NCBI GenBank assembly: GCA_043820105.1
Contig: JBDREC010000061.1
Coordinates: forward strand, 1 to 30,031
Direction: 5' to 3'
DNA from: JBDREC01 sp043820105 [NCBI: Pseudomonadota bacterium]
GTDB taxonomy: Bacteria > Bdellovibrionota_F > JAHFAK01
Length of the DNA stretch: 30,031 nt
Part shown: positions 4,026 to 30,031 of the stretch, piece by piece
Layout: every line of letters begins with the position of its first letter
Numbering within the stretch: the first letter of the stretch is position 1
Notes under the pieces: model-generated
Databases searched by the model: none
Seen by the model: only the letters and a program-made list of their open reading frames with translations
What the model was told of the DNA's origin: nothing
Position numbers and translations under genes: made by a program

Positions 4026-4180
4026 GGAACAAGAGCGCAGGGGAACAGGGTAACAAGGAAAGAGAAGCAGCATGTATCCAGCATCCAGCATCGAACATCG
4101 AAACTTACCACTTATCACTTATCACTTACCACTTACCACTTACCACTTACCACTTACCACTTACCACTTACCACTTATTA
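4026..4180. repeat. compound short tandem repeat tract, 7-bp unit, abutting the ptb stop
   Basis: Three different repeat motifs follow one another. 4026-4062 is a degenerate GGGGAACA/GGGTAACA tract. From 4076 to 4180 there are 15 heptamers in unbroken register: ATCCAGC twice, ATCGAAC, ATCGAAA, then ten CTTACCA/CTTATCA units and a final CTTATTA. The last three bases of that final unit (4178-4180, TTA) are the ptb stop codon read on the minus strand. Because three 7-bp units make 21 bp, every frame reads as a 7-residue repeat, so short open frames on the plus strand here are artefacts. Confidence 0.95.
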
Positions 4181-5077
4181 TGAGCTCAATATGCCCAAAA
4201 CGATTGAATAGAACTTGGTTTCATGAGTGTCGGCTCGGCTTGTTAAAATAATTGGCGCCATAGCACCAGAAACAATAGCACCGATTTTAGCTTGAGCAAA
4301 GAAAGCCAAGGATTTATATAAGTAATTTCCTGATTCAATTGAACCAGAAAGAATAATGTCAGCTTGACCTGCTACTTCTGAATCAATTTTTTTGATTCTT
4401 TTTGATTCTTCGCTGATTGCTATATCAAGACCAAAAGGACCCTCAACAATACAGCCTTCAATTTTTCCTTCTTTAGAAAGTTTTGTTAGTTCATCTGCAT
4501 GAAGTGTTTCAATCATCTTTGGATTAACTTTTTCAACAGCACAGCAGGCAGCAACTAAAGGTAAGTCAATACCAAATTTATGAGCAACGGAAACAGTGTT
4601 ATTAATAATTTTTACTTTATCTTCAACTTCTGGTCTAATATTAATCGCCGCGTCAGTTACAAAAAGAAGTTTAGGATATGCAGGAGCTTCAAAAACTGCA
4701 ACATGAGAAATAAGGTTCCCAGTATTAAGTCCATTTTCCTTATCAAGGATTGCCTTCATATAATCAGCAGTTCCCAGGGATCCTTTCATAATAGCAGAGG
4801 CTTCACCTTTTCTAATTAATTCACAGCAAAGCCTGGCTGCCTTTGAATGATCAGGCTCATGAATAATTTCAAAACCATCTAAAGAAATATTAGCACCTTC
4901 TGCTGCACTCTTAATATTATTTTCATCCCCTGTTAAAATACCAATAGCAAGTCCTTCATCTTGAGCTTGCCTGATAGCAGCTAAAACTTCAGCATCTTCA
5001 GCCACAGCTATAGCGACTTTCTTAGTCTCCATTTTTTTAACTTCATCTAACATTTCACAAAAATTCTTAATTGCCAT
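4178..5077 (-). CDS. ptb: phosphate butyryltransferase (phosphotransbutyrylase)
   Basis: The product is about 299 residues, the usual length for Ptb. It converts butyryl-CoA and phosphate to butyryl phosphate and CoA in the cytoplasm, feeding butyrate kinase for ATP. It looks like the PTA_PTB family throughout: an early AIRQAQDEGLAIGILTGD segment, KGSLGTADYMKAILDKE, FVTDAAINIRP, GPFGLDIAIS and a C-terminal GAMAPIILTSRAD. A related phosphate acetyltransferase is the main alternative, but the adjacent buk supports Ptb. ATG 5077 is chosen over a TTG two codons upstream because AGGAG sits 7 nt before it. buk lies upstream on the same strand, separated by a heptamer array. The stop codon overlaps the next array. 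Confidence 0.92.
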   Translation of the reverse strand: MAIKNFCEMLDEVKKMETKKVAIAVAEDAEVLAAIRQAQDEGLAIGILTGDENNIKSAAEGANISLDGFEIIHEPDHSKAARLCCELIRKGEASAIMKGSLGTADYMKAILDKENGLNTGNLISHVAVFEAPAYPKLLFVTDAAINIRPEVEDKVKIINNTVSVAHKFGIDLPLVAACCAVEKVNPKMIETLHADELTKLSKEGKIEGCIVEGPFGLDIAISEESKRIKKIDSEVAGQADIILSGSIESGNYLYKSLAFFAQAKIGAIVSGAMAPIILTSRADTHETKFYSIVLGILSS

Positions 5078-5116
5078 TACCAAACTCCTATTTACATATT
5101 ATTCTTTTTAAAAAAA

Positions 5117-5186
5117 CCAGCAACTAGCAACTAGCAACCAGCAACCAGCAACAAAACGTACCACTTACCGCTTACCACTTAGCACT
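5117..5186. repeat. heptamer tandem array between buk and ptb
   Basis: Ten 7-bp units in register: CCAGCAA/CTAGCAA five times, one CAAAACG, then TACCACT/TACCGCT/TAGCACT. The motif changes partway while the 7-bp phase is kept. The array ends 2 bp before the buk stop codon and fills most of the buk-ptb gap. Confidence 0.95.
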
Positions 5187-5188
5187 TT

Positions 5189-6259
5189 TTAATACTCTTT
5201 TGCTTCTTCTTCCCCCTTAAGCACTCTTAAAGCTCCATCCCGAAGTGGTTCCATTTCTTTTTCACCAGGATAAATCATTACATTTGCAATCCAGGATACT
5301 CTTTCAGTAATCATATCAGTAAAAGACTTTCCGTAAGCAAGGCCACCTGACAAAACTATTCCATCGACCTGGCCTTTAACAACTGTTGCTAAAAGGCCAA
5401 TTTCCTTTGAAACCTGATATGCCATTGCTTTATAAACAAGCTTTGCCTTTTCATCACCTGCTTCAATCATCTCCTCTACTTTTCTGGCATCATTGGTTCC
5501 TAAATATGCTACAAGTCCGCCCTGGCCTTTAATTTGAGATTTTATTTCCTTTTCTGAATATTTACCTGAAAAACAAAGCTTTGCTAAACCCCCAGATGGC
5601 AAACCACCTGATCTTTCTGGTGTAAATGGACCTTCGCCATCAAGTGCATTATTAACATCAATTACTGAGCCCTTAGAATGGATTCCAATTGAAATTCCAC
5701 CCCCCATATGCGCAATAATTAAATTTACTTCATTAAGTGATTTTCCCAAATCAGCTGCTGCTTTACGAGCCACTGATTTTTGATTTAAGGCGTGGAAAAT
5801 TGAAAGTCTTGGAATATTTGGATTTCCTGAAAGTCTCGCTATTTCTTCCATCTCATCGACCACCACAGGATCAACAATAAAGGAAGGACAATCTGCAATT
5901 TTTGCTATTTCAAAGGCCAAAATTCCACCTAAGTTACTTGCATGTTCGCCTCTAATGCCTTCTTTTAGATCCTTAATCATTTCTTCATTAACTTTAAAAG
6001 TACCTGATGGAATTGGTCTTAAAAGACCACCTCTTCCAACAACTGCTGAAAGATTTTTGGGATCAAAATCAATTTCTTTTAGTGCATCTAAAATTATTTC
6101 TTCGCGAAAAGGATATTCTTCTGTTATTTTCTCATATTTTGCCAAATCTTCGCTTGAATGCGATAAGTTCTTAGTTAAAATTTCTTCTTCATTTTTGAAT
6201 AAGGCAATTTTTGTGGAAGTTGAACCTGGATTGATTACTAGAATGTTTAAGTTGCTCAT
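5189..6259 (-). CDS. buk: butyrate kinase
   Basis: The product is 356 residues, typical of butyrate kinase. It transfers phosphate from butyryl phosphate to ADP, giving butyrate and ATP, the last step of butyrate fermentation. The acetate/butyrate kinase (ASKHA) signatures are clear: N-terminal ILVINPGSTSTKIALF for phosphate binding, VVGRGGLLRPIPSGTF, the HMGGGISIGIHSKG loop, DGEGPFTPERSGGLP and C-terminal IVLSGGLAYGK. The GAG-rich loop and length fit Buk better than acetate kinase (~400 residues). GGAG lies 7 nt before the ATG. buk precedes ptb here, the reverse of the clostridial ptb-buk order. Branched-chain acyl phosphates are possible alternative substrates. Confidence 0.94.
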   Translation of the reverse strand: MSNLNILVINPGSTSTKIALFKNEEEILTKNLSHSSEDLAKYEKITEEYPFREEIILDALKEIDFDPKNLSAVVGRGGLLRPIPSGTFKVNEEMIKDLKEGIRGEHASNLGGILAFEIAKIADCPSFIVDPVVVDEMEEIARLSGNPNIPRLSIFHALNQKSVARKAAADLGKSLNEVNLIIAHMGGGISIGIHSKGSVIDVNNALDGEGPFTPERSGGLPSGGLAKLCFSGKYSEKEIKSQIKGQGGLVAYLGTNDARKVEEMIEAGDEKAKLVYKAMAYQVSKEIGLLATVVKGQVDGIVLSGGLAYGKSFTDMITERVSWIANVMIYPGEKEMEPLRDGALRVLKGEEEAKEY

Positions 6260-6410
6260 TTTAATACTCCGTTTAGGCTAGTAGCTGATTAAAATTGCTT
6301 TGTTTTATAACAAATAAGAATTCTATGGCAATGAAAAAATTATTTGAGAAGTATTTGTCACACTAAATGCAAAAACATTCCCTATTCAATAATATAAACT
6401 CTTAAAATCA

Positions 6411-6454
6411 CTAAGAATTCTTAGCCGCAATGCGGCACGATAATTGCATATAAT
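6411..6454. promoter_or_regulatory. 14-bp palindrome, adjacent hairpin and candidate -10 in the buk/6533 divergent gap
   Basis: 6411-6424 is a perfect 14-bp palindrome, CTAAGAATTCTTAG. It runs directly into 6424-6436, an inverted repeat GCCGC-AAT-GCGGC, which is strikingly GC-rich for this region. A consensus TATAAT follows at 6449-6454, pointing toward the metalloprotease-like gene at 6533, but no good -35 is seen at normal spacing. An operator pair plus promoter would fit. This is inference from symmetry and position. Confidence 0.4.
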
Positions 6455-6532
6455 CTTAAGACATGAGTAGCATCCAAGTTTATTAGTCTATTATGAAATA
6501 TAGGACTTATTAAATTTCCAGGGAATATAAAA

Positions 6533-8161
6533 ATGTATTTTAGCAAAATATTATATTTACTTTTAATTATATACATAATTCAGAGCACAATTATTCAAGC
6601 AGATCAAAGCTTTAATGATCCAAGCGGTTCTATTGAAAAATATGAATTTTTCTTTGATAAAGTAATTTATAAAATTGAGCAACATAATGATGCTGTATAT
6701 ATAAGGTTTTTAGCTCCAATAGATGGAATTGATAAGAATATCTTGCAAAGAATTATCAGAGAAAAACTTCCTTCAGAATTTTTTGATTATTTACCAGATT
6801 TCAACGAAATTAATACAACTTTTATTGAAGAAATTTTATTTGCAGAAAATGAATCTGATGAGATTCCTGAGGTAAAAGAAGAAATAAATTTGGCCCCGCA
6901 AAATATAAACAATAAAATTATTGTCTATGGGAAAGAAGCTGTACTTAATACAAAAATCAAAGCAAGCACAATCCAATATTACTTTTTAGAAACACCAGAT
7001 TATTATACATTATATGAAGATAATATACCTTACCCAAAAAGTTATATAGTAAGATATGGAATTCAAACGTTGTCACATGAAGAATTATTAAATAGCATTT
7101 TTAAAGCTGAGCAAAGAGGAACTATCAGAATTGACCTAAATAATAGTGAAAATATAGCTTTTTCTTTATTAGAAAACTCATTAATTCCCCTGGTTCATAA
7201 TGAATTTGAATCTAGGTATTCTCAAAAAAGATCAGCTCAATTATATTGTAAGTCAGAAGAAATAACAGTTGATCTCGCTCTGGCAGCCAGACAGGAAGAA
7301 ATTGCCAATAAGTCAATTGAGCTTATCGCCTATTTTTCAGATGCTGATGAAGATGGCAATGTTGCTTTAACTAAAGATTCAATAAAGATAGCTGAGGCTG
7401 ATATATATTATAATACAATATTTGTAATAAATACCCTTGCCTTAGAAAATAAAAATTTTGGCTGGAACTTTAACAAGCATCCAAGAATGAAAATCTTTCG
7501 AAGCAATTATTTTAATTCTGTTTATTTAACAGAAGAAGCAAAAGAAAAACTCTTTTCAGATAAGCTATATAAAAACAAGGACTTTCTGGAGTTGGCTAAA
7601 AATTATTTTATTTCACACGAAGCTACCCATGCGTATGATTTGACAAAATATCCAATTGCAGCAAGATATCTTTTTGTTTATAATGATATAATAGATTTTT
7701 TACCACCATCTGTCCGAAATATTGACCCCAATTTTGTTAGATTTAATTATAAAGAAATGAAAATGGATTTTGCAAATTACCAGAGCAATATTGAAGCCAG
7801 AGCTCTTTTAGAAACCTTTGCTGTAAATCCATTAATAGCTTTTCTGGGATTTTCATATTACATTATGGAAAATGAAGCGTATTTAAAAGATTCAGTGGTA
7901 TATTCAGATCATTTAAACAATGATTCATTAGAATACTCCGGAAGTTCACATTATTTAGCTGCCATGAGAATACTTAAATATTTTCTAGTTCATGGTAATT
8001 TATGGGACAAATATGCAGAAAATGGATTTAGTTCAATTCTATTTTTAGACCCAAATCAATTGATAAAGCTTTCCGGTGATTTGTATATTGAGATAGGTGA
8101 TGAGCTTAAGTCACTTGATGAAAAATATAGAAAATGGGAAACTGAACATCCTAAAAGTTAA
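6533..8161 (+). CDS. secreted HExxH metalloprotease-like protein
   Basis: The product is 542 residues with an N-terminal signal peptide (hydrophobic residues 5-20, cleavage near QADQ). A zinc-protease motif HEATH is at residues 362-366 (H362, E363, H366) in a helix-like context (LAKNYFISHEATHAYD). E421, in NIEARALLETFA about 55 residues on, is a plausible third ligand of the gluzincin type. Residues 270-275 read DADEDG, resembling an EF-hand or dockerin-like calcium loop, though the usual position-12 acidic residue is displaced. The N-terminal half (about residues 25-260) is not recognised. AGGGA precedes the ATG. It likely acts in the periplasm or outside the cell; the substrate is unknown. 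Without profile searches the family is not named. Confidence 0.75.
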   Translation: MYFSKILYLLLIIYIIQSTIIQADQSFNDPSGSIEKYEFFFDKVIYKIEQHNDAVYIRFLAPIDGIDKNILQRIIREKLPSEFFDYLPDFNEINTTFIEEILFAENESDEIPEVKEEINLAPQNINNKIIVYGKEAVLNTKIKASTIQYYFLETPDYYTLYEDNIPYPKSYIVRYGIQTLSHEELLNSIFKAEQRGTIRIDLNNSENIAFSLLENSLIPLVHNEFESRYSQKRSAQLYCKSEEITVDLALAARQEEIANKSIELIAYFSDADEDGNVALTKDSIKIAEADIYYNTIFVINTLALENKNFGWNFNKHPRMKIFRSNYFNSVYLTEEAKEKLFSDKLYKNKDFLELAKNYFISHEATHAYDLTKYPIAARYLFVYNDIIDFLPPSVRNIDPNFVRFNYKEMKMDFANYQSNIEARALLETFAVNPLIAFLGFSYYIMENEAYLKDSVVYSDHLNNDSLEYSGSSHYLAAMRILKYFLVHGNLWDKYAENGFSSILFLDPNQLIKLSGDLYIEIGDELKSLDEKYRKWETEHPKS

Positions 8162-8180
8162 TAATAATAATAATTTTAAT

Positions 8181-8210
8181 CCTAATCCTAATCCTAATCC
8201 CAATCTTAAT
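8181..8210. repeat. hexamer tandem repeat between convergent genes, containing a stop codon
   Basis: Five 6-bp units: CCTAAT three times, CCCAAT, CTTAAT. The stop codon of the minus-strand S41 gene (TTA at 8206-8208) is inside the last unit. The motif is the complement of the GATTAG/GATTAA array at 22389-22436. Confidence 0.9.
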
Positions 8211-9642: not shown

Positions 9643-9995
9643 AAGATACACCTTTATTAAAAGAAAGATATACTCACATACAAAACTAGCCGCTATGCGT
9701 CAAGTTATTTTTAAATTAAGAATTAGAATTAGATTAACATTGAAAAATATTGAATAGCAATTTATCCTATTGTTCCCTTGTGATACAAGTGCCACATCAG
9801 AAAATAATCAATAATCAACAATCAATTTTCAATAATTAATGAATGTTGGGCACCAGTCACCAGTGCACCAGTCGCCAGTAAGATACAAAATACCGAATAC
9901 CGAATACTGAATACTAAATACCAATCCCCGTCGCCTTGTTCCCCTGTGCTCTTGTTCTCCATACTTAGAATCAATTGTGCAATACACATACCAGA
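9643..9995. other. intergenic stretch with composite short-repeat element
   Basis: No gene is seen. After the leader of the S41 gene there is a short GAATTA-type 6-bp tract near 9715-9737, then the composite repeat listed separately at 9769-9963. No terminator or promoter stands out. Confidence 0.7.
9769..9963. repeat. composite repeat element, copy 1
   Basis: Sub-blocks in order: a small inverted repeat CTTGT-GAT-ACAAG (9777-9789), an AATAATC/AACAATC 7-bp tract (about 9803-9845), a CACCAGT/CACCAGC tract (about 9851-9880), an ATACCGA/ATACTGA tract (9890-9920), then a degenerate CCCCTGT/GCTCTTG tract to about 9963. The first four blocks recur in the same order and orientation at 29787-29930. 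Confidence 0.9.
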
Positions 9996-10385: not shown

Positions 10386-10494
10386 ATTTGTATTTGAAGT
10401 TATCAAAGAAAAAAAATCAATTGAAATGAATATTATTTTGAGATTATTAAATACTTGAAAATTGAATATGGCTATGATGTATTTTATTCTTTTT

Positions 10495-10516: not shown

Positions 10517-10529
10517 GGATGGATAAGAT

Positions 10530-12503
10530 ATGAGCAAACAGGATTTCAATAAATTAACTGAAGAAGAGCTTGCAAAACAAATAGACTTTCACAATTACAG
10601 ATATTTTGTACTCAATGATCCTCAAATATCTGATTATGATTTTGACAAGTTAGTTGAGCAGCTAAAGTCCTTAAATCCTTTGCACCCAATCTTAGACAAA
10701 ATTGGTGCTGGTATTGAAACTATTGTATCAGGCTTTGACGTAATCCAACACAAAACACAGATGCTTTCACTTGATAAATGTTATGAAGATGACGATTTAA
10801 TAAAATGGGCAAAGGACATTCATTCAGATTTTTTAGTTATGCCCAAAATTGATGGCCTAGCGATTTCATTAAGATATGATAAATTTGGAAAACTCTTTAT
10901 CGGTGCTACTCGAGGTGATGGATTAAAAGGTGAAAACATTACAAAAAATGTTAAGCAAATCCAAGATATTCCAAATCAAGTAGATCTTTCTAAAATAGAT
11001 AATTTCAAGATTTCATCAAGAGACATTGAAATTCGTGGTGAAGCTTTTATGCAGCTATCAACATTTGAAAAATATAAAGATAACTTTTCAAATCCACGCA
11101 ACCTGGCAGCTGGTGCTATAAAGCAAAAAGACGAAACAAAAACAGGTGAATATGGATTATCATTTTATGCTTATGATATCCTTGGATTTGATTTCAAGGA
11201 TGAAAAGGATAAATTCTCTGTCCTTGAGAAACTTGGCTTCCCAATTCTGCTTCATAAATTTTATATCAAAGATAATTTAAATCAAGCTTACGCCTTCTTT
11301 TTAAGTGAAAAAAATAAGCTGGATTATGAAATAGACGGCCTTGTCTACAGAGTTTCTAAAATTTCAGAACAAATAAAACTTGGAAACACAGCTCATCATC
11401 CAAGATATGCTATTGCTTATAAGTTTGAAGGAGAAACTGGTGTAACAGTATTAAAAGATATTGAATGGTCTGTTGCTAGAACTCACGTTATAACGCCAGT
11501 TGCGTTAATTGAGCCAATAAAGCTTTCTGGAGCTATGGTTTCAAGAGCTTCACTGCACAATATCGGAATATTTAAAAAGCTCAAGCTATCAAAAAACTGT
11601 CAAATCAGTGTTGTTCGAAGAGGTGGTGTTATACCTCATGTTGAAAAAGTTGTAAATCAAGGCAATGAAAATATCGATCCACCAAGCAAATGCCCGTCAT
11701 GTGGATCGGAAACTTATTTTTCAGATGACTTCCTTTATTGCTCAAATAAAACAACTTGCAAGCAGGCTAATATTTCTTATTTGGAATATTTTATTAAAGC
11801 TTTAGAAATAGATGGGCTCGGCAATAAACATATTGAACAGCTCTATGAAAATTCATTAGTAAGAAAGCCTGCTGATTTTTTTAGACTTACAAAACAAGAT
11901 TTAATGCCACTAGATAGAATGGGCGAAAAACTAGCCTCTAAGATTATTCAAAACATATCATTAAAAAAAGAAATCACTCTTGATTCATTTCTTTATTCTC
12001 TTGGAATAAAAGATCTTGGAAAGCAAATTGCAAAAATAATAGCAAGCTTTGGGGATCTTGAAAAGATTAAGAATACCTCAAAAGAAGATCTTGGCTTGAT
12101 TCACTCAATCGGTGAAAACATCGCGGAATCAATAGAACTTGGTTTAAAAGAAAAAGAAGAAATAATAAATGACCTTTTAAATTATATCATAATTGTTGAA
12201 AATCAAAGTGCAGCAGGAAAGGTTGATTCCATTTTTTACAAAAAATCCGTTTTATTCACAGGCAAAATGGAAAGCCTTGACAGACGTGCAGCTCAGGATA
12301 TTGTCAAAATATTTGGCGGTAATATTTCCTCAACAGTTACCAAGGATCTTGATTTTTTGGTTGTTGGAAATGAGGTTTTTGAGAATTATAAATCTGGAAA
12401 ACTTCCTACTGGAAAACTCAAAAAAGCAACTAATTATAACAAATCAGGAAGCCAGATTTATATAATCTCGGAAGGTAAGTTCCTGGAAAAAACAAGAGAT
12501 TAA
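10530..12503 (+). CDS. ligA: NAD-dependent DNA ligase
   Basis: The product is 657 residues, normal for bacterial LigA. It seals nicks in DNA during replication and repair using NAD+. Visible domains in order: the Ia/adenylation region with HKTQMLSLDKCY, the nucleotidyl-accepting lysine K106 in KIDG, RNLAAGAIKQKD, and EIDGLVYRV. The OB fold follows with GNTAHHPRYAIAYKF nearby, then the four-Cys zinc finger CPSCG...CSNKTTC. Next are helix-hairpin-helix repeats (IDGLGNKHIEQL, LDRMGEKLASKI, IHSIGENIAESI) and a C-terminal BRCT domain (VLFTGKMESLDRRAAQDI). All expected parts are present. A weak GGA-type ribosome site precedes the ATG. It appears monocistronic. Confidence 0.97.
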   Translation: MSKQDFNKLTEEELAKQIDFHNYRYFVLNDPQISDYDFDKLVEQLKSLNPLHPILDKIGAGIETIVSGFDVIQHKTQMLSLDKCYEDDDLIKWAKDIHSDFLVMPKIDGLAISLRYDKFGKLFIGATRGDGLKGENITKNVKQIQDIPNQVDLSKIDNFKISSRDIEIRGEAFMQLSTFEKYKDNFSNPRNLAAGAIKQKDETKTGEYGLSFYAYDILGFDFKDEKDKFSVLEKLGFPILLHKFYIKDNLNQAYAFFLSEKNKLDYEIDGLVYRVSKISEQIKLGNTAHHPRYAIAYKFEGETGVTVLKDIEWSVARTHVITPVALIEPIKLSGAMVSRASLHNIGIFKKLKLSKNCQISVVRRGGVIPHVEKVVNQGNENIDPPSKCPSCGSETYFSDDFLYCSNKTTCKQANISYLEYFIKALEIDGLGNKHIEQLYENSLVRKPADFFRLTKQDLMPLDRMGEKLASKIIQNISLKKEITLDSFLYSLGIKDLGKQIAKIIASFGDLEKIKNTSKEDLGLIHSIGENIAESIELGLKEKEEIINDLLNYIIIVENQSAAGKVDSIFYKKSVLFTGKMESLDRRAAQDIVKIFGGNISSTVTKDLDFLVVGNEVFENYKSGKLPTGKLKKATNYNKSGSQIYIISEGKFLEKTRD

Positions 12504-16270: not shown

Positions 16271-17899
16271 TTAAATACATTCTTTTAGCTCAGAACCAAG
16301 CCTTTGCGGATTTTGAATTGTATCGATCTTTATAAGTTTATTTGCTTTATAATTATATCTATTTATTAGAGTCTTGGGTTGCATATGATCAGTACCAGAT
16401 TCCATTATTAGTTTTGTATAAAGTGCAAATCCTTGCACAATTGGAGCTAAAGCTCTTCCTATAATTATATCTTTGAATGAAAGCTCTATTTCAACTTCTT
16501 TTCTTAATTTTCTGACCCATTTTTTTACTTCAACTGATGTAGCATGTGAAATTGCAGCTGGAAATAAGGGTAAGGCTCGAATAAGAAGTTTTTTATACTT
16601 TTTAAACCTTGAAATAATAATAGGCTTATTGCTATTTTTAAAATGCCTATATCCAAGCAAGGTTTTTTCTATAAATCTGAGAGCAGATGGACCAAGTTTT
16701 TCAAAGTCTTGCTTAAATGCGTCTAATTGGATTTTTTCTATTTCAACAGCTGTGAAATTAGGGTGCTTAAAAAGCAAATGGAATCCGTCCTGTTTTGCAT
16801 ATGGAACATTTGTTAAAGTCCCTGCTTCATCTAACCTTTTATATAAAGGAGTTTCTGGGCACGGACTGAAGATTAGAAATTGAGTTAAGCTTGGTTTTAA
16901 GGATAAAGTGTAATCAATATCCTTTTGTATATTCTCACTATCATGATGGTCTACACCAAGAATCATAGATCCAAGAGTATTTATTCCAACTTCATGTAAA
17001 GAATCAAAAAGTTTTTTTAAGTCAATTCCAGCTGTTTTATCATAAGAATAATATTTTGATTCAACACCAAGCCAAATCGTGTCAACACCAAGCTCAACAA
17101 GCCATTCAGGATCGTATTGCATTATACTTTTTGCACTTGCAAAACATGAAAAGGTCCTGGGATTATCCGTTTCTTTAGATGTATATTCGTAAAGCTCTTT
17201 TATTCTTGTTTTATCTTTTAAAAAATCCTCATCAATTATTGAGTAGGATCTAGCTTTCATTATTGAGTCATATTTTTTCATAGCTTCAAAAATATCTTTG
17301 CCTGTTTTTAATAAGGGAATGTGCTTTTTCTTGAAAAAATGGCTAGTACAACAAAAGTCACAACCATTTGGACAGCCAAGACCGCCAAAAATCACTCCAG
17401 TCTGTCCTACCGGAAGAGACAGGCAGCTCATTTCATTTATCATTGTTGGAGTGTTAAATTTGGTAACTTGTGGCTCGTTCAAAAGTTCTTTCATATAAGA
17501 TAGCCCCTCACCCCTGCAAACAAAATCAGCATATTCATCAACTTCAGATAAAACAGTTCCATATCCACCTAAAATAATTTTTGTATTTGGAGAGTTTAAC
17601 CTTGTTAACTCTATTAGTCTTTTAGCCTTGTCCCAGGTAGGCAAAACAAAGCCAATGCCTAGATAATCATAATCTTTTTTTAACTCTTTAATAAACTCTT
17701 TCTCACTTGGATAATGTAAAACTGTGGTTGGAGCATTTATATTCTTTGCCATAAACTCAAGATTCCATCCATGATAGACAGATCGCAGTGAAAAAATCCC
17801 CTGAGACCTTGTAACCTGGGCATGAAAAAGCTCTGCCTGCACATGCTCATTTTCAAGCCCAAAGGGCTTCTGTACTGTAGTAAATAATACTTTATTCAT
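16271..17899 (-). CDS. B12-binding-type radical SAM protein
   Basis: The product is 542 residues. The N-terminal ~150 residues resemble the cobalamin-binding Rossmann-like domain of this superfamily (KIILGGYGTVLSEVDEYADFVCRGEG), although no DxHxxG motif is seen, so actual B12 binding is unproven. The radical SAM [4Fe-4S] motif is C176-x3-C180-x2-C183 (CPNGCDFC), with an extra Cys at 184. Downstream is typical radical SAM barrel sequence (DTIWLGVESKY, GINTLGSMILGVDHHD, TQFLIFSPCPETPLYKRLDEAG). The C-terminal ~150 residues are helical and basic. AAGGGA lies 9 nt before the ATG. Such proteins methylate or rearrange diverse substrates; none can be named from this context. Confidence 0.88.
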   Translation of the reverse strand: MNKVLFTTVQKPFGLENEHVQAELFHAQVTRSQGIFSLRSVYHGWNLEFMAKNINAPTTVLHYPSEKEFIKELKKDYDYLGIGFVLPTWDKAKRLIELTRLNSPNTKIILGGYGTVLSEVDEYADFVCRGEGLSYMKELLNEPQVTKFNTPTMINEMSCLSLPVGQTGVIFGGLGCPNGCDFCCTSHFFKKKHIPLLKTGKDIFEAMKKYDSIMKARSYSIIDEDFLKDKTRIKELYEYTSKETDNPRTFSCFASAKSIMQYDPEWLVELGVDTIWLGVESKYYSYDKTAGIDLKKLFDSLHEVGINTLGSMILGVDHHDSENIQKDIDYTLSLKPSLTQFLIFSPCPETPLYKRLDEAGTLTNVPYAKQDGFHLLFKHPNFTAVEIEKIQLDAFKQDFEKLGPSALRFIEKTLLGYRHFKNSNKPIIISRFKKYKKLLIRALPLFPAAISHATSVEVKKWVRKLRKEVEIELSFKDIIIGRALAPIVQGFALYTKLIMESGTDHMQPKTLINRYNYKANKLIKIDTIQNPQRLGSELKECI

Positions 17900-17918: not shown

Positions 17919-17953
17919 AAAATCCAAAATCCAAAATTCAAAATTCAAAATCA
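17919..17953. repeat. short heptamer array
   Basis: Five 7-bp units: AAAATCC twice, AAAATTC twice, AAAATCA. It lies between the divergent radical SAM and histidine kinase genes. The AAAATTC unit is the same one found translated inside the FAD/Fe-S oxidoreductase gene. Confidence 0.9.
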
Positions 17954-18006: not shown

Positions 18007-18939
18007 ATGAAAAAACTGCTCCCAATAATTTTTCTAGTTATAACTTTACTTGCATCAAGTGCGATACTTACCCTCTGGATAGTTTGGTATATTAGTGTAA
18101 ACAATCTCTTTGGAAACTTATTTGAAAAATATGGAATTGAACCCTCATATTACACAAGTGTGCTTTGGCTTTTACAGGGAATTTTCCTTGTAGTTTTTGT
18201 CATTGCTGGTGCAATTACCATATTTGTATATTGGACTAGATCAAAGTCCCTTGATAACATGAGAATGGCTTTTATATCAGGAGTTTCCCATGAACTATTA
18301 ACACCCCTGTCTTCATTAAAACTTTATATTGAAACAATGCTTTTAAGAAATATAAATAAAGAAAGGCAACAAGAATTTCTAAATCTTATGCTAGAAGATA
18401 CTGATATTCTAGCTGACCATATTTCAAAAATCCTGCTAGCTTCCAAACTTGAACGGAAAAAAGCTGTTTATACTTTTAAAACAGTTAATATGACAGATTA
18501 CATTACTGATTATTTAAGTTCTAATAAAAACAATTTCAAAAAATCGAAAATTACATTTAGAAGTAATAGTAAAAATATTTTTTCAAAAATTGATACGGCA
18601 TTTTTTAATATAGTATTAAGGAACATTATTGATAATGCTATAAAATATGGTCCCAATAAGACCACTATCAAAATTGAATTAAATAAAAAAAATAATAAAA
18701 ACATACTATCAATATCAGATAATGGCCCAGGAATTGAAGAAAAAAGACTTAAAAAAATCTTCTCACTTTTTTATAGAATTAATCACAATAAAAAAGGAAC
18801 AGGTCTTGGATTATATATAGTTAAGACACTTGTAAAAGCGCATAAGGGAAATATTTGGGCTATTAATAATATAGACAATAAAGGTATAACGATAAATATT
18901 TCACTAAAGGATGAATATGCAAAAGATATTAATAGTTGA
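18007..18939 (+). CDS. sensor histidine kinase
   Basis: The product is 310 residues. Two membrane helices (about 5-30 and 52-76) flank a short external loop of about 22 residues, with no HAMP or PAS domain, so any sensing must be by the loop, membrane or partners. The HisKA domain has the phospho-accepting H95 in SHELLTPLSSLK. The ATPase domain shows the N box NIIDNAIKYG, G1 SDNGPGIEE, and G2 GTGLGLYIVKTLV. It autophosphorylates and passes phosphate to the response regulator encoded next, whose gene overlaps by 23 nt. The ribosome site before ATG is weak. This is a minimal kinase; the stimulus is not known. Confidence 0.94.
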   Translation: MKKLLPIIFLVITLLASSAILTLWIVWYISVNNLFGNLFEKYGIEPSYYTSVLWLLQGIFLVVFVIAGAITIFVYWTRSKSLDNMRMAFISGVSHELLTPLSSLKLYIETMLLRNINKERQQEFLNLMLEDTDILADHISKILLASKLERKKAVYTFKTVNMTDYITDYLSSNKNNFKKSKITFRSNSKNIFSKIDTAFFNIVLRNIIDNAIKYGPNKTTIKIELNKKNNKNILSISDNGPGIEEKRLKKIFSLFYRINHNKKGTGLGLYIVKTLVKAHKGNIWAINNIDNKGITINISLKDEYAKDINS

Positions 18940-21081: not shown

Positions 21082-21083
21082 AA

Positions 21084-22283: not shown

Positions 22284-22609
22284 AGTGATAAGTAGTATGC
22301 AAAGTTTAGGCCAAAGCTATGAATAGAATTTATATTTCGATACACAAAAAAAGATATTTGCTATTTAAACTTATTGGATAAGGAGTACGATTAGGATTGG
22401 GATTAGGATTAAGATTAAGATTAAGATTAAGATTAAGACATAAGAGCTAAGAGAATAAAGAAGCAAGAGACAAGAACGATAAACTATTACAATTTTCAAG
22501 TTAAATGGCAATATACGGCGAATAAAAAATCATATCTTGATTTTTGTTTCTTTGTATAATTTAGTGTTTTCAAATCTTTAAAATATTCTCACAAAAAGGA
22601 GATCTGTAT
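22284..22609. other. divergent gap between comF and sppA-type gene
   Basis: No gene is seen. It holds the hexamer array at 22389-22436, followed by a degenerate GAGCTAA/GAGAATAAAG-like tract to about 22480. A TATAAT (22555-22560) lies about 50 bp before the sppA start without a well-spaced -35. AAGGAGATC is the ribosome site of the sppA-type gene. Confidence 0.6.
22389..22436. repeat. hexamer tandem array
   Basis: Eight 6-bp units in register: GATTAG, GATTGG, GATTAG, then GATTAA five times. It is the complement of the CCTAAT motif at 8181-8210. It is followed by degenerate units of 6-8 bp. Confidence 0.93.
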
Positions 22610-23593
22610 ATGAAAAAATATCTTTTATTGATTTTAATTCTGGCAGTTAGTTTTGTTTTAAATTCATGCTTTAAAATTAATATTCAACCATTTAGACAAG
22701 AGCCAAAGCCTGCTAGTGAATATATAATAAAACCTGCTACATTAATAAGCACAAATGATAAAGTTGCTGTTATTGACATAGAAGGCTCAATTGGAGGAGG
22801 AAAATGTAAACCTCTATCTATTTGTGCAGTTGGTATGATGTCAGTGCTTGCTAAAATTGAACAAGATACTGATGTTAAGGCTCTTATTATAAATGTTAAT
22901 TCTCCTGGTGGAGAGGTTACAATAACTGATATTATTTATGATTCTATTATGAAATTAAAAAAGAAAAAGAATATCCCGGTTTATACCTTCGTCCAAAGAG
23001 CTTGTTTTTCAGGAGGTTATTATATAGGCTTAGCTGCTGATGAAATTTATGCCCTTCCAACCTCCTCAATTGGATCAATTGGCGTAATATGGCTGTCATT
23101 TGAGCTTGTGGATACTTTGAAAAAAATAGGGGTTAAACCTGTTGTAATCAAATCTGTAAAAAATAAAGACTTAGCTTCTCCTTTTAAAGAAATGCTTCCT
23201 GAAGAAAGAAAAGCTATACAAGATAATATTGACCATCTTCATAATAAATTTACGAACATAGTTGTTGATAGACGTGCAAAAATTACAAAAGATAATATTG
23301 ATAAAATAGCAACTGGGTTTGTATTTACAGCAGACGATGCATTAGAAAAGGGTTTAATTGATGGGGTTATGTATTATGATGAATTTCTTGAAAAACTTAA
23401 AGAAAAGCTAGAGCTTAAAGATTTTAACCTTGTAAGATACTCACTTTATAAAAATGAAATTCAAACCTATTATACTCCTCACATGTCTAATGATTTTCCT
23501 TTTTCACAAGATATTGGAGCTTCTTTGCTGAATGCTTTTGAAGAGACTCTTGAAAATAGAAGTGGGTATTATTATATGAGTGGTAAGTGGTGA
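22610..23593 (+). CDS. sppA: lipoprotein S49 signal-peptide peptidase (SppA-type)
   Basis: The product is 327 residues, the short SppA form. The lipoprotein signal has its lipobox ending at C20 (FVLNSC), so it is anchored at the membrane by lipid and not by a transmembrane helix. The protease core has NSPGGEVTITD, the likely nucleophile S134 in ACFSGGYYIGLAADEI, the SSIGSIGV turn, and a probable general-base Lys near 186 in KNKDLASPF. It degrades cleaved signal peptides or other membrane-proximal peptides. AAGGAG lies 9 nt before the ATG. The final codons SGKW and the TGA stop fall in two AGTGGTA/AGTGGTG repeat units, so the natural C-terminus was probably altered by repeat expansion. Confidence 0.9.
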   Translation: MKKYLLLILILAVSFVLNSCFKINIQPFRQEPKPASEYIIKPATLISTNDKVAVIDIEGSIGGGKCKPLSICAVGMMSVLAKIEQDTDVKALIINVNSPGGEVTITDIIYDSIMKLKKKKNIPVYTFVQRACFSGGYYIGLAADEIYALPTSSIGSIGVIWLSFELVDTLKKIGVKPVVIKSVKNKDLASPFKEMLPEERKAIQDNIDHLHNKFTNIVVDRRAKITKDNIDKIATGFVFTADDALEKGLIDGVMYYDEFLEKLKEKLELKDFNLVRYSLYKNEIQTYYTPHMSNDFPFSQDIGASLLNAFEETLENRSGYYYMSGKW

Positions 23594-23645
23594 GCTTGAT
23601 GCTCGATACTTGATGCTAGATACTCGATACCCGAAGCTAGTTAAG
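23579..23645. repeat. heptamer array overlapping the end of the sppA-type gene
   Basis: AGTGGTA and AGTGGTG (23579-23592) encode the last residues and part of the stop of the SppA-type protein. From 23598 six further heptamers run in register: GATGCTC, GATACTT, GATGCTA, GATACTC, GATACCC, GAAGCTA. AGTGGTA is the complement of the TACCACT unit found beside buk and ptb. Degenerate TTAATCC-like units continue to about 23690. Confidence 0.9.
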
Positions 23646-23691
23646 GCTAAATCTTAATCCTTGCAGCTTAATCCTAATTTTAATTTAAATT

Positions 23692-24966: not shown

Positions 24967-25347
24967 ATATTCTCCCCATTATTTATTTAATCATTATATT
25001 TAATATTATGCATTTTCTTCTTGGATTTGATTTCTCTGCCTATCTTCATTTTTAGCACAAGAAAATAAAGTTATTATGGAAATAAAAATTAGAAAGAATA
25101 TTCTAATATAGTCTAGGTGTTTCATGTCTTCCCCCAAGCTCGGTTGATTTGAGCTTATATCTTTTATTTAATACAATTAATTTTTTGCATCTTTGAGACT
25201 GCTTAGTTGGAATGATAAACAAATATGTTTTCATTCATAGAATTATAGATGCAAAGATCATGCCGCGCCATAAGCCCATGTTTTCATTGCTTTTCATCTG
25301 TTTATGTAAAACAAAATGGCCTGAATCTTGCACCAAATAGCCGAATT
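24967..25347. other. gap holding a tiny lipoprotein gene
   Basis: 25006-25125 is a small lipoprotein gene, listed separately. In the remaining 25126-25347 no gene, repeat array or convincing promoter was recognised. Confidence 0.55.
25006..25125 (-). CDS. 39-residue small lipoprotein
   Basis: A 39-codon gene with GGGGGAAG just before the ATG. The product has a complete lipoprotein signal ending LFSC with Cys at position 23, leaving a 17-residue polar, charged mature peptide (CAKNEDRQRNQIQEENA). The lipid cysteine and the surrounding FSCAKN are at exactly the same residue positions as in the 424-residue lipoprotein encoded 39 bp downstream, so the two signals probably share an origin. It could be a small functional lipoprotein or a duplicated and truncated 5' end. 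A strong ribosome site and a clean stop favour expression. Confidence 0.6.
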   Translation of the reverse strand: MKHLDYIRIFFLIFISIITLFSCAKNEDRQRNQIQEENA

Positions 25348-28300
25348 TTAAGCATCCTTTTCCGAATTTCGGTGTTCTAGCAAAACAGAATAAATATCAT
25401 TAATTTGCACACTAGATCCCTCAATCTTACCCTGAATACACAAACCATCCCTACATGATGGGCAAGAAGAAACTATATTTTCAGGATTAATTTGCTTAAT
25501 ATCTTTGAATAATTCCTGAGCTATTTTACCACCTATTAATGGATGCTTATATCTGGAAATCCCAGCTAATCCACAGCATTTATCCAGAGTCTTAATTTTT
25601 CCAAAAAAACTTTCCAAAAACTTAATCTGATTAGTAGTTACTTCATCTTTATTATGACATGGAATTTTTATTCCTAAATTTTGAATTTTGAGTTTTGAAT
25701 TTTGAATGAATTTTTCCCCCCTGTCCCCCTGTTCCCCTGTTCTCTTATACAAGTGGTCTATACTATCTTCTATTTTCAAATTCTTCTCTCCAATATCCTT
25801 CAACATTTCCAAACAAGTCGGACAACTGGTAACAATAGTAAGGTCTTCTGATCCATTCCTTTCTTTTATAATTTTTATAGCTTTTTTTATTTCTTTTTCT
25901 AACTGCTCTTTCAGTTTTTCAGCTTTTGACAAAAAACCTTCTGCTTTATAAGGAAAACCACAGCAAATAGTATTTTTAAAATCCCAAAAAGGAATTTTCT
26001 CAAGCTCAGTATAATATTTTTCAAAAGACTCAGAAGCCTTTGGCTGAAAATAGCTTTCAGCACATCCTCTAAATCTTATTAGAGTAGACTCGTGACTATT
26101 TTCAATTTCATGGCCCTGCAATACTATATTATCATTTTCATGTATTAGCTTGCCTTTTAATAAGGGATCATAGGATTGCGCTGGAATTTTCGGTGCATTT
26201 AAATATGTTCTTATTGCTGCTTGTTTAAAAGATAAAATACAAGCAAGTTTCATAAAAGGTAGCATGATTTTCTGAGAAACAGAAACTAAAGAGTGGAATA
26301 GTTTTTTAAATGACCAATCACCTAAAAGAGAATTTAAAATGATTTTTAACTTTTTATTCCCCCATTCACCTTGATCAATTAATTTGTAATAATGACTTTT
26401 TAAAACTTCAATATTTATATCACTGGGACAATTTATATCACAGCGTTTGCAGTAAAAGCATTTTTGCAGTGAAGGTTCAAACTCTTTTAATATTTTTTTA
26501 ATTTCCTTTGCTGAAAACATTTTGCTATGAATCATAAAAACAAGCTTTTCTAATAAATACAGAATATCTTTTTTAGAAAACATTGTTTGCCAGGAAGATA
26601 TTCCCCTAAATTCATAATTCAACCGGCTTTGAGAATCTGTAACTGGACAAATATTACATGAAGTACATCTTGTGCATTTAGAAGCCAGTGACAATATTTC
26701 ATTAATGTCATGATTTTCATTTCTTAATTTTTCTATTTCTTCTGATGAAAAATTCAAAGCCCTAGCAGATATTTTTTGTGAAATCTCATTTTCTGCAAAT
26801 AGCTTTCCTCTATTAAATATATCTTTGGGGTCTAAAAATTTTTTAATACAACTTATTCTTTGAAATTCATCCTTTGCCAAATAAGCATAAAAGTGTTTAT
26901 TTGCTTTTCCTGAAATTCCGTGTTCACCAGAGAAAGCATACTTCATATTATCTTTACTATTTGCTGCTGCTAATTTTGCTATTGATTCATTTAAAAAAGA
27001 CCAGGCTTTTTTTGAATCATCTTCATTATAAATATCAAAACCCGCGACATTCCAATGCATTATTGCAGTATTTGGTAAAGACAAGTGCCCAAAAAACAAA
27101 TCATTAATTTCTTTTTCATTAGCTTGGCAATGCTTTGTTTCATTCTTTATTATATTTACAGCTTCATTTAAATAGGAAAAAGATATTTCAGAATCTGTTT
27201 TACATTTTGACTTCATTTTTTTCGGCAAAAGCTCCCTTGGCTCAATCATTGCTGTAGCCTCAGAAGGAACATTTTCTAAAGAATAAATATCACTTATCCT
27301 AAAATCAATTTTAGCTGAAGGTAGGGATGCTATTATTAATCCTAAATTCTTTTTAAGCTCATCTTTTTTATCTGCTTCACAAGAAAGCATTAAATAGGCT
27401 TCACAATCTTTATTAAATATATTTGGGAAATCATTTTTCAAATGCATACTAATAGCTGGCTCAGTAATCATTTCAAAATAATGTGGGTTTAAATTTTGGC
27501 TTTTAATAGATTGGATAAAAGTAATAGCTTCACTAAGCTTTTCAAATAAAATAGATGAAGTAAAAGCATAGTCTAATTTTTTTTCAACTTGCAAAGAAGC
27601 TTCACTTATAATACCTGTGGTACCTTCAGCGCTTACAAATAAAGAAGATGGATAAAAAGCTTGTGAACATAAATTCAAATTCACTTCACCTGATTTTATT
27701 CCATAGAATTTATTAAAAACTAAAAAGCCATTTTCTTTAACATATTTTTTTTCATATCCTGTTTGTGCAAAATATATTTCTTTTCCTGGGGAAACAATAG
27801 CACTTCCCGAAAGTAAAACCTCGTGAATTCTTTTTCCTCCATTACTGCCTGAAGCAATTATCCCGCCAAGACTAGCTCGAGGTGTGTTTGGCTGACATCT
27901 TAAAACAAAGCCTTCATCTTCAACAGATTTAATTATATCCTTATATGAGGCTCCAGCTCCTGCTTTAACAGAAAATATTTGTCCTTCTTTGCTTGTTATA
28001 TGATAATCAACTTTTTGTATTTCACCAAGGCCAGGAATTGCAATTGTAATGGATGGTGTATAAGGAATAATTCCCATATTATAACCGCCACCACCCCCAA
28101 AAGGAATGATAGGAATATTTTCTTTAAAACAAAATTTGATAAATTTAAGTAAATGTTTTTTTGAATAAATTGAAGCAATTGCTTCTGTGGGAATTGTGCG
28201 AAATTCAGTTGAGTCTGTAGAATAAGCTTCGCGAGCGCCCCAAAGAGTATTAAAATTATTGCTTCCAATAATTGATTCTATTCTATATCTTTTTTTCTCA

Positions 28301-28518
28301 ATAATGGATCTAATGCGAAGTGTTTCTTTTATGTTTCTTTCAATATAAGCAAAAAGATCTTTTGAGATAAGGTCCTTAAACTTATGTCTTAAGTCCTTTT
28401 CCCATGATTTATATGTACAGAAAAAAGGGAAATATGTATATTCAGATATTCCTAAAATAATATTTTTATCTATAGGCAGGCAAAGTCCAAAAGGTTCAAT
28501 TTTGTCATTATAATTCAT
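25348..28518 (-). CDS. FAD-linked oxidase fused to Fe-S/CCG-domain subunit (D-2-hydroxyacid dehydrogenase-like)
   Basis: The product is 1056 residues, like single-chain YdiJ/D-lactate or D-2-hydroxyglutarate dehydrogenases. In order: an FAD_binding_4 domain (about 75-290; PIIPFGGGGGYNMG, PRASLGGIIASGSNGG), an FAD-oxidase C-terminal domain (about 320-580; GEHGISGKAN), and two [4Fe-4S] motifs, C615-x2-C-x2-C-x3-C and C687-x2-C-x2-C-x3-C. Two CCG domains follow (CCGFPYKAEG with TSCPTC; CCGLAG with SSCPSC). It oxidises a D-2-hydroxyacid and passes electrons to an unknown acceptor. Residues about 925-949, between the CCG domains, are encoded by a short-repeat tract translated in frame. No good ribosome site is seen at the ATG. 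Confidence 0.9.
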   Translation of the reverse strand: MNYNDKIEPFGLCLPIDKNIILGISEYTYFPFFCTYKSWEKDLRHKFKDLISKDLFAYIERNIKETLRIRSIIEKKRYRIESIIGSNNFNTLWGAREAYSTDSTEFRTIPTEAIASIYSKKHLLKFIKFCFKENIPIIPFGGGGGYNMGIIPYTPSITIAIPGLGEIQKVDYHITSKEGQIFSVKAGAGASYKDIIKSVEDEGFVLRCQPNTPRASLGGIIASGSNGGKRIHEVLLSGSAIVSPGKEIYFAQTGYEKKYVKENGFLVFNKFYGIKSGEVNLNLCSQAFYPSSLFVSAEGTTGIISEASLQVEKKLDYAFTSSILFEKLSEAITFIQSIKSQNLNPHYFEMITEPAISMHLKNDFPNIFNKDCEAYLMLSCEADKKDELKKNLGLIIASLPSAKIDFRISDIYSLENVPSEATAMIEPRELLPKKMKSKCKTDSEISFSYLNEAVNIIKNETKHCQANEKEINDLFFGHLSLPNTAIMHWNVAGFDIYNEDDSKKAWSFLNESIAKLAAANSKDNMKYAFSGEHGISGKANKHFYAYLAKDEFQRISCIKKFLDPKDIFNRGKLFAENEISQKISARALNFSSEEIEKLRNENHDINEILSLASKCTRCTSCNICPVTDSQSRLNYEFRGISSWQTMFSKKDILYLLEKLVFMIHSKMFSAKEIKKILKEFEPSLQKCFYCKRCDINCPSDINIEVLKSHYYKLIDQGEWGNKKLKIILNSLLGDWSFKKLFHSLVSVSQKIMLPFMKLACILSFKQAAIRTYLNAPKIPAQSYDPLLKGKLIHENDNIVLQGHEIENSHESTLIRFRGCAESYFQPKASESFEKYYTELEKIPFWDFKNTICCGFPYKAEGFLSKAEKLKEQLEKEIKKAIKIIKERNGSEDLTIVTSCPTCLEMLKDIGEKNLKIEDSIDHLYKRTGEQGDRGEKFIQNSKLKIQNLGIKIPCHNKDEVTTNQIKFLESFFGKIKTLDKCCGLAGISRYKHPLIGGKIAQELFKDIKQINPENIVSSCPSCRDGLCIQGKIEGSSVQINDIYSVLLEHRNSEKDA
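25677..25747. repeat. short-repeat tract inside a coding sequence
   Basis: Read on the coding strand there are GGGGAACA/GGGGGACA units of 8 bp, then AAAATTC/AAAACTC units of 7 bp. These are the motifs seen in intergenic tracts at 4026-4062 and 17919-17953. The open frame is kept, and the protein shows a 7-residue echo (IQNSKLK, IQNLGIK) as expected for a 7-bp repeat. Confidence 0.92.
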
Positions 28519-28604
28519 AATATTTAAGTATATTTATTTTTTTCTTTATACTTTCAATATTTTATTCTAAAATTCAAGTGTTTTAAAATAAAAAGGATCT
28601 TTTA

Positions 28605-29780
28605 ATGAATAAGAATTATAAATGCAATTTTCTATCTCTTATTATTATTATTTTCATGTTTTCAGCATCTTCTTACATCTTCTCCATTGAATCAAAAATT
28701 GATTATACGATAAAAAAAGGTGACACCTTATGGGCAATATCAAATGACTTACTGGGTGATCCCTATAAATGGAAAATACTATGGGATTTAATGCCAGAAA
28801 ATGAAAGAGGAAATAATCCTAATGTAATAAATGTTGGTGATAAGATTACAATTGTTACAGACGAAAATAATAATCCCAAAAGAATACTTATAAATGCAAA
28901 GGAAGAAGTAATTACGGAAAATGATAAAATAGATGAAAATATTAAGAAAATAAAAGAGGAAAAAATAATTCAAAAGAAAATCAACCCTATAAAGAAAAAA
29001 GAGCAAAAACCTATAAACACACTTGATGCAGAAGAAAAAGCATATAATGCTAAGCTTGAAGAAATAGAAAAAGAAAAACAAGCATCTAATAAGCAAGCCG
29101 AAATCACAGAAAAACCTCCTAGTTATCAATATAACAATGTTTTAAAATCTTTTATTACTAAAGAAAAATATTTGGCAGCTGGAAAAATTATAAGTCTTGA
29201 AAAGCCAAGTATTATGATTTCTACAAATGACAAGCTATATGTAAATTTTATTGAGCCGGATAATGTCATTATTGGAGACCAATATTTTTTAGTTAGAAAA
29301 GAAGGGGACATTATACATCCAATTTCAAAGAAATTTATGGGATATAAAATTGTTAAAACTGGAATAATTAAATTACTTAAAAAAAATAATGACCTTTTTA
29401 CAGCTATTGTAGTTCAAGCATTTAAGGAAATAGATACTCATGACCGTATTATTGATTTCAAAAAGCCTTCAAAAACAATAAATACTTCTTATATGAAAAC
29501 AAAGGTAGAAGGTTATGTTATTGGGTCACCAGAGGACAAATTCCTTTCTGGATCCCATGATCTTGTTTACCTTGACCTTGGATCAGAAAATCAAGTTATT
29601 GAAGGAAATGTTTTTGATATTCTAAAAGACTATGCTGACCCAATATCCCAAGAAAGGCTTCAAAGAAAAATAGGGACATTAGCTGTATTTGAAGTTTTTG
29701 AAAAGTCTTCAATTGCAATGGTCTTAAATGCATCAGAATCAGTAATGAAAGGACAAGTAGTTAAATCCATTAATAAATAA
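28605..29780 (+). CDS. secreted LysM-domain protein
   Basis: The product is 391 residues. A signal peptide (about 1-28) is followed by one LysM domain (about 34-83; YTIKKGDTLWAISNDLLGDP ... NVINVGDKITIV), which binds peptidoglycan. Next is a Lys/Glu-rich, probably coiled or disordered linker (about 95-160). The C-terminal ~230 residues are beta-rich and contain two similar halves (YLAAGKIISLEKPSIMIS ... GDQYFLVRK, and KVEGYVIGSPEDKFLSG ... GNVFDILKD). The overall plan resembles LysM proteins of predatory and related proteobacterial lineages, though I cannot name a family. It is likely a periplasmic wall-associated protein. AAGGA lies 7 nt before the ATG. Confidence 0.85.
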   Translation: MNKNYKCNFLSLIIIIFMFSASSYIFSIESKIDYTIKKGDTLWAISNDLLGDPYKWKILWDLMPENERGNNPNVINVGDKITIVTDENNNPKRILINAKEEVITENDKIDENIKKIKEEKIIQKKINPIKKKEQKPINTLDAEEKAYNAKLEEIEKEKQASNKQAEITEKPPSYQYNNVLKSFITKEKYLAAGKIISLEKPSIMISTNDKLYVNFIEPDNVIIGDQYFLVRKEGDIIHPISKKFMGYKIVKTGIIKLLKKNNDLFTAIVVQAFKEIDTHDRIIDFKKPSKTINTSYMKTKVEGYVIGSPEDKFLSGSHDLVYLDLGSENQVIEGNVFDILKDYADPISQERLQRKIGTLAVFEVFEKSSIAMVLNASESVMKGQVVKSINK

Positions 29781-29786
29781 ACCCGC

Positions 29787-30031
29787 ATTGTCCCCTTGTG
29801 AAACAAGTGCCACCTCATTAAATAATCAATAATCAACAATCAATTTTCAATAATCAATGGGGCACCTGTCACCAGAGCACCAGTCACCAGCAAGATACAG
29901 AATACCATATACCGAATACTGAATACTGAATACCGAATACTGAATACTGAATACCGAATACTGAATACTGAATACCGAATACTGAATACTGAATACCGAA
30001 TACTGAATACTGAATACCGAATACTGAATAC
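29787..30031. repeat. composite repeat element, copy 2, with long 21-bp higher-order array
   Basis: 29787-29930 matches the element at 9769-9920 block by block: CTTGT-GAA-ACAAG inverted repeat, AATAATC tract, CACCAGT tract, ATACCGA/ATACTGA tract. From 29911 to the window end, 17 heptamers run in strict order ACCGAAT, ACTGAAT, ACTGAAT, repeated without error, giving a 21-bp higher-order unit. The array continues beyond the window. Confidence 0.95.

Follow-up and report, generated by a model that had tools for sequence, protein, structure and literature searches.

Heptameric tandem arrays with several unit sequences in a 30-kb stretch of bacterial DNA and at an orthologous spacer of Flavobacteriaceae

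Introduction

In filamentous cyanobacteria, short tandemly repeated repetitive (STRR) sequences have 7-bp units, and the same unit length is found in most of the tandem arrays considered here. These arrays lie in a 30,031-bp stretch of DNA from the bacterium JBDREC01 sp043820105 (Bdellovibrionota_F, contig JBDREC010000061.1), below called the window, which has a GC content of 31.8% and was chosen for its arrays. The likeness to the STRR sequences is one of unit length: the LigA protein of the window is 34% identical to that of the one cyanobacterium searched, no better than to those of other phyla (30–36%).

The heptameric long simple-sequence repeats (LSSRs) of prokaryotes are the kind to which the window arrays belong. 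According to the account of Mrazek 2007 given in PMC4692102 and PMC4679880, heptamers are over-represented and form the most abundant long class in most genomes, and slippage by a polymerase with a 7-nt polymerase contact was proposed as their source. The heptamer excess and the slippage idea are thus already published. In that account of heptameric LSSRs (Mrazek, Guo and Shah 2007), as in the window, seven nucleotides is the prevailing length of long units, with a sporadic occurrence across genomes. The window differs from what is reported there by its composite of several heptamer blocks, which is present twice, and by two hexamer arrays.

Other heptameric systems differ mainly in their units. 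The direct repeats of marine Beggiatoaceae are, as described in PMC4679880, intergenic heptamers found in several phyla including Bacteroidetes. By that description a single unit, TAACTGA, prevails, whereas the window has several units, and TAACTGA is absent from the leading classes of its 10 arrays. The GGGNATC and GGGGA(C/T)T repeats of Xanthomonas and Nostoc, described in PMC4692102 as heptamers spread across spacers in variable copy number, are G-rich and quadruplex-forming; none of the heptamer consensus units of the window contains a run of three G or C. In Geobacter metallireducens, PMC2700814 reports dispersed elements of four and five heptanucleotide units, present in 49 copies with the consensus GGACCGG and proposed to be regulatory; they share the heptamer build with the window arrays and differ in the units. 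Finally, in the P6b stem of the Nostoc tRNA-Leu intron one 7-nt unit class replaces another at one site with the register kept, according to PMC4476775. However, P6b is a stem within an intron, and the window arrays show no stem.

What we add to this is the concentration of heptamer arrays in some genomes, and the atpD–atpC spacer of Flavobacteriaceae, in which the unit changes at a constant period. The window arrays are probably heptameric LSSRs, residing in a genome that looks heptamer-rich and grown by slippage or recombination in a 7-nt register.

Results

Excess of period 7 in the window

The window was scanned by period-neutral autocorrelation, in which periods 1–20 are scored alike, with Tandem Repeats Finder (TRF) run alongside. 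At scores of at least 16, six arrays have period 7 and two have period 6, with none at any other period from 1 to 20. Lowering the threshold to 12 gives nine arrays of period 7, two of period 6 and one each of periods 3, 8, 10 and 14. TRF agrees with the scan on the period-7 arrays. In 20 composition-preserving Markov resamples of the window, not a single array of any period was observed at a score of at least 14.

The same preference is seen in the intergenic DNA as a whole, represented by 17 stretches with a total length of 3,669 nt. The z-score is 11.0 at lag 7, 5.3 at lag 14 and 1.5 at lag 6, and it is negative at the remaining lags from 3 to 16. When the arrays are cut out, lag 7 drops to 2.0. 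The heptamer arrays are situated outside open reading frames (ORFs) of at least 100 aa, the cut-off used for calling an array intergenic, with the sole exception of 25677–25707. Hence tandem 7-nt units longer than expected by chance, and mostly intergenic, are found here as in the heptameric LSSRs.

A preliminary description of the window had listed seven loci with a 7-bp period, considered as a family of short arrays of one unit length. Both TRF and the scan identify period-7 arrays at 4076–4102, 4103–4177, 5119–5152 (starting from 5115 by TRF), 9803–9825, 9889–9921, 17919–17951, 25677–25707, 29821–29843 and 29909–30031. On the other hand, the listed locus 23579–23645 is weak (period 14 with score 12 in the scan), the array at 25717–25742 has period 8, and two clear hexameric arrays, 8159–8205 and 22389–22438, had been left off the list. 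Sharing of units within the window is weak: of the 45 array pairs, four differ by one mismatch at most, where about 1.5 would be expected, and two of these four come from the copies of the composite element described below.

The composite element and the phase of its blocks

In the self-comparison, positions 9769–9922 and 29787–29934 are 87% identical over 154 columns, forming an element of about 150 bp. The two copies share a non-repeat left end that includes a small palindrome, CTTGTGATACAAG. The loci at 9803 and 29811, previously taken for separate arrays, are in fact two copies of this one element. Copy 1 (9769–9922) is intergenic and consists of the palindrome, an AATAATC block, a CACCAGT block and an AATACYG block of about five units. 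Copy 2 (29787–30031) has the same order of blocks, but its AATACYG block has at least 17 units and is organized as a higher-order repeat of three heptamers, with a 21-bp unit (96% matches). Since copy 2 runs past the window end, which falls within this block, the block length is a lower bound. The window end (30031) thus falls in the longest array, and the contig may have broken there.

It had also been suggested that changes from one motif to another preserve the phase. At the CACCAGT/AATACYG junction this is indeed so, as the spacing is equal in both copies. At the AATAATC/CACCAGT junction, the only other one that can be compared, the copies differ by a 6-bp indel. Because of this indel, and because the CACCAGT units of copy 1 follow with steps of 7, 8 and 7, the phase is not kept as a rule. 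Between unrelated motifs at the other arrays the phase is undefined.

No inverted match of one composite end to the other appears in the both-strand self-comparison, although short terminal repeats would escape it and the right end of copy 2 is beyond the window. A 19-base piece of the left end has one occurrence in IMG/VR, with no array in the surrounding 340 nt. A similar pair of composites was seen in a Lentisphaerae genome (L141), where an element of GAATTAT and TCAGCAT heptamers has two copies 2 kb apart, at 16412–16489 and 18385–18467, with partly complementary arms.

Folding of the window arrays

A strongly complementary flank (z below −3) was found for none of the 10 window arrays, and none has a complementary heptamer array alongside that could form a heptamer hairpin. 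Most of the nine DNA folds of window arrays are ordinary. The folds of 4076–4180 have z-scores of −7.6 and −2.7 but are very weak (−2.8 and −2.3 kcal/mol), and the z-score for 23590–23645 is −2.3. The window contains no Rfam match at gathering scores.

Heptamer arrays in other genomes

Public genomes of many phyla contain three tandem copies of AATACYG, with at least 117 such stretches found. Among the 117 matches listed, and with the seed arrays excluded, there are 75 arrays of period 7, followed by periods 14 (24 arrays), 8 (21), 16 (10), 6 (6) and 9 (4). These 75 non-seed arrays fall into 53 unit classes.

A sample of 392 kb from 20 AATACYG-bearing genomes contains 16 period-7 arrays, the runners-up being periods 12 and 14 with five arrays each. 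For comparison, we considered 40 unfiltered genomes (650 kb), comprising 20 Chloroflexota taken by a fixed step and 20 Flavobacteriaceae hand-picked regardless of counts. At scores of at least 14, the 16 arrays of the array-bearing genomes are found in seven of 20 stretches, whereas the unfiltered set yields six arrays in three of 40 stretches. In the latter, no period from 5 to 9 other than 7 exceeds one array. At the same threshold, the density of period-7 arrays per Mb is about 200 in the window, 41 in the array-bearing genomes and 9 in the unfiltered ones. Given 16 arrays in 392 kb against six in 650 kb, heptamer arrays concentrate in particular genomes, and the genome of the window looks like one of these.

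Pooling of all spacers gives no increase at lag 7, either for the 20 array-bearing genomes (z 0.1) or for 30 flavobacterial loci (z −0.8); therefore the signal sits in individual arrays. Of 192 heptamer arrays outside the window, 34 are flanked by strongly complementary sequence, compared to six of 192 control positions, where the two arms of one hairpin may count twice.

Two simple rules for the choice of units were considered and rejected. The first is a unit vocabulary common to all phyla. Three copies of ACTTACC occur in none of 40 AATACYG-bearing genomes, whereas the reversed control occurs in five of 40, and hence the choice of units looks genome-specific; in IMG/VR, three copies of ACTTACC were found in eight stretches. 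The other rule is a generally preferred ACTG core. Four copies of ACTGNNN followed by ACT are present in 20 of 70 Flavobacteriaceae genomes against seven of 70 for the control, but the preference does not extend to two other groups, where the core and its reversed control were found in 16 versus 17 of 121 genomes and in 17 versus 22 of 118 genomes, respectively. In the same 70 Flavobacteriaceae genomes, three copies of GAATACT are present in three, four copies of AAYAACN in 16, and three copies of AACTCAT in none. In two Winogradskyella species, a GAATACT array occupies a common site (L069, 6818–6906; L124, 106–253), one of them with an adjoining TCACTCA array.

In permutation tests for contiguous conserved columns, a significant result (0 of 2000) was limited to the seed loci and the Flavobacteriaceae regions, both of which had been chosen by pattern. 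The signal is weak in the Chloroflexota, with 107 of 2000, as well as in the eight segments of the window, with 66 of 2000, and it is absent from the 20-genome set.

A polymerase or a templating element had been proposed as the source of the arrays. We compared genomes with at least five ACTGNNN matches (rich) with genomes picked among those having no ACTGNNN and no control matches (poor). Among 30 rich and 30 poor genomes from the same groups, 11 in either set have reverse transcriptase (PF00078), and 27 in either set have the Y-family polymerase (PF00817). By this test, which concerns presence only and a richness defined by one pattern family, both proteins occur without association with the arrays, and neither a templating cause nor the gain of a polymerase finds support.

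A Chitinispirillaceae metagenome-assembled genome (G023) has a GTTTAG hexamer array of 87 nt at a contig start (L140, 1–87) and 176 matches to three copies of CCATTCA, the reversed control of ACTTACC.

The atpD–atpC spacer

Two of the AATACYG loci, L079 and L091, have the array in a common spacer, between atpD and atpC, the gene names being read from the protein sequences. To follow this spacer, 120 Flavobacteriaceae genomes were drawn, of which 116 matched; together with L079 and L091, 30 loci and 40 of the 86 others were used, 72 in all. The spacer could be parsed in 68 of these; 24 spacers are shorter than 50 nt, and the 44 of at least 50 nt were analysed. Some parsed spacers begin a few nucleotides inside atpD because the stop codon was placed approximately. 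The counts given below are not independent events, owing to shared ancestry, and the site was picked because two members had an array.

The mean z-score in the 44 spacers is 3.59 at lag 7 (above 2 in 37 of 44) and 2.43 at lag 14, while at the other lags from 3 to 13 it is at most 0.33. Even in the 36 spacers lacking exact arrays, the mean at lag 7 is 3.03. A second null gives a lag-7 mean of 3.02 (above 2 in 30 of 44), compared to 0.11 (three of 79) for other spacers of the same group. At that, the units vary by species, examples being GAATACT, the GACTGCAAACT type, AAYAACN, GAGTT/AACTC and GCTTAAA. Thus, at one orthologous site a period of 7 is common to species with different units. Among the papers listed in literature searches, none describes unit swapping at atpD–atpC in its title or the opening of its abstract.

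The predicted RNA folds of these spacers are also unusually stable, with a mean z-score of −3.4 (below −2 in 37 of 44). Under the second null the value is −2.39 (28 of 44 below −2), versus −1.58 (27 of 79) for the other spacers. Many of the predicted folds contain helices of 4–5 bp separated by internal loops of 2–3 nt, and hairpins with 7-nt modules are predicted for many of the spacers. Across the individual spacers (L079, L091 and L147–L216), many have such heptamer-phased hairpins, and others are short and plain.

The unit of the spacer may be compared with the arrays in the rest of the genome, the spacers being typed by eye. Genomes with an ACTG-type spacer have ACTG-type arrays in seven of 11 cases versus 13 of 59 for the remaining genomes (p 0.009); when one self-match is removed, six of 11 are left (p 0.058). 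For the AAC type the respective numbers are three of eight and 13 of 62 (p 0.37).

Individual arrays and their neighbours

The first array starts with ATCCAGC/CATCGAA heptamers at 4076–4102, passing directly into 10.7 copies of ACTTACC at 4103–4177. It is intergenic, was identified by both TRF and the scan, and ends at the stop codon of the minus-strand ORF 4178–5083. The spacer between this ORF and the next minus-strand ORF, 5189–6259, which resembles annotated butyrate kinases, contains AACCAGC/AACTAGC heptamers at 5115–5152 and TACCACT heptamers, of the same unit class as ACTTACC, at 5159–5187.

The AAAATCC/AAAATTC array at 17919–17951 (TRF and scan) is situated in the spacer of divergent ORFs. 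The GATGCTC/GATACTC array at 23595–23640, between convergent ORFs, is weak and imperfect, its best period being 14 or 21.

The only heptamer array within a gene is formed by AATTTTG, of the class of AAAATTC, at 25677–25707. On the minus strand it encodes residues 938–948 of a 1056-aa protein with FAD-oxidase and CCG domains. The period-8 CCCCCTGT array at 25717–25742 corresponds to residues 926–934 of the same protein; it is C-rich, and hence G-rich on the coding strand. As regards insertion of these coding arrays, homologs at about 22% identity align through residues 926–948 with small gaps only.

The two hexamer arrays, TAATCC at 8159–8205 between convergent ORFs and GGATTA/GATTAA at 22389–22438 between divergent ORFs, were both found by TRF and the scan. 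In the self-comparison, each matches the opposite strand of the other. Downstream of the minus-strand ORF 318–2159 there is a perfect direct repeat of 30 bp, with copies at 120–149 and 249–278, about 130 bp apart. LigA (10530–12503) has matches in 28 of 32 genomes; those of near full length are about 30–36% identical, which suggests a deep-branching host.

Discussion

Growth of the arrays by slippage or recombination would start from short chance repeats, which replication slippage or unequal recombination would lengthen in a register of seven. Unit variants that remain in phase would then result from point changes, and recombination or copying would carry whole array blocks between spacers, where these are tolerated. 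Seven may prevail through the way in which the replication machinery handles a 7-nt slipped loop, as conjectured in the literature. What is directly seen behind this account is the 7-bp excess, the duplication of the composite as a block with its non-repeat left end, and the difference in unit number between its copies.

Several points weigh against slippage as the whole explanation. Pure slippage leaves unexplained both the orthologous spacer with its constant period and changing unit, and the excess of complementary flanks (34 of 192 versus six of 192). The two hexamer arrays mean that the window is not purely heptameric. A single 30-kb window chosen for its arrays cannot yield the rate for its genome. 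Finally, the LigA searches found no relatives of the window in which growth and loss at its own loci would show.

An alternative is that the arrays have a function in the spacers, either as RNA hairpins or as protein-binding arrays, with the 7-nt register kept by selection and the units free to change within this register and its pairing. We consider it possible, although rather unlikely. The atpD–atpC spacers, with a lag-7 mean z of 3.59 and a fold z of −3.4 and with helices in 7-nt modules, are consistent with such selection, as is the excess of complementary flanks over controls; a published parallel is the trnL P6b stem of Nostoc, which, as described in PMC4476775, is built on two alternative 7-nt motifs. 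However, strongly complementary flanks (z below −3) are absent from all 10 window arrays, their folds are mostly ordinary, and there is no Rfam match. Moreover, the other flavobacterial spacers also fold better than shuffles (z −1.58 versus −2.39), and therefore hairpins alone are weak evidence. An improbable explanation is a mobile or templating element, either similar to miniature inverted-repeat transposable elements or a reverse-transcriptase system, that lays down the arrays. The presence of the composite of about 150 bp twice in 30 kb, at 87% identity and with non-repeat sequence included, argues for it. At the same time, the self-comparison shows no inverted match of the composite ends, with the reservation about short terminal repeats made above; most remaining sites have in common the array sequence, not the flanks; rich genomes have reverse transcriptase no more often than poor ones (11 of 30 each); and the only IMG/VR occurrence of the left-end 19-mer has no array within 340 nt around it.

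That the arrays, chiefly the one at the window end, were inflated or created by the assembler is very unlikely. The longest array is indeed cut by the window end, and the data are assembled sequence, but the other arrays are short (23–75 nt), broken by distinct variants and set in unique sequence, and like arrays are present in many independently assembled genomes. As for chance combined with the low complexity of an AT-rich genome, a GC content of 31.8% eases the formation of short repeats; nevertheless, the lack of arrays at scores of at least 14 in 20 resamples and the specificity of lag 7 lead us to count it as refuted.

The preliminary description suggested a single generating mechanism for all arrays. 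There is indirect support for a cause that acts on the period and not on the sequence, given by the heptamers of other sequence at AATACYG loci, by the array density and by the atpD–atpC spacer. On the other hand, the variety of units in the window is in part one composite counted twice, two arrays are hexameric, and the phase is broken at one of two junctions. A stronger version of such a cause, which we put forward tentatively and hold to be less likely than not by a wide measure, is that in a subset of bacterial genomes some factor fixes the register of intergenic arrays at seven and leaves their sequence free. At a single orthologous spacer, one unit could then be exchanged wholesale for another with period 7 maintained, in some lineages inside hairpins with both arms made of heptamers. 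The heptamer-rich state would be heritable and have a definite cause, either a factor of replication, repair or recombination, or else an RNA or protein reading a 7-nt register.

The window represents a clear multi-motif heptamer case with a duplicated composite element. Since heptamer arrays are gathered in particular genomes, a cause can be sought by comparison of rich genomes with poor relatives, and the atpD–atpC spacer of Flavobacteriaceae provides a natural series of changing units at a constant period. A mutational cause would point to a 7-nt step in bacterial replication or repair, and a functional one to a reader of 7-nt registers not recognised so far.

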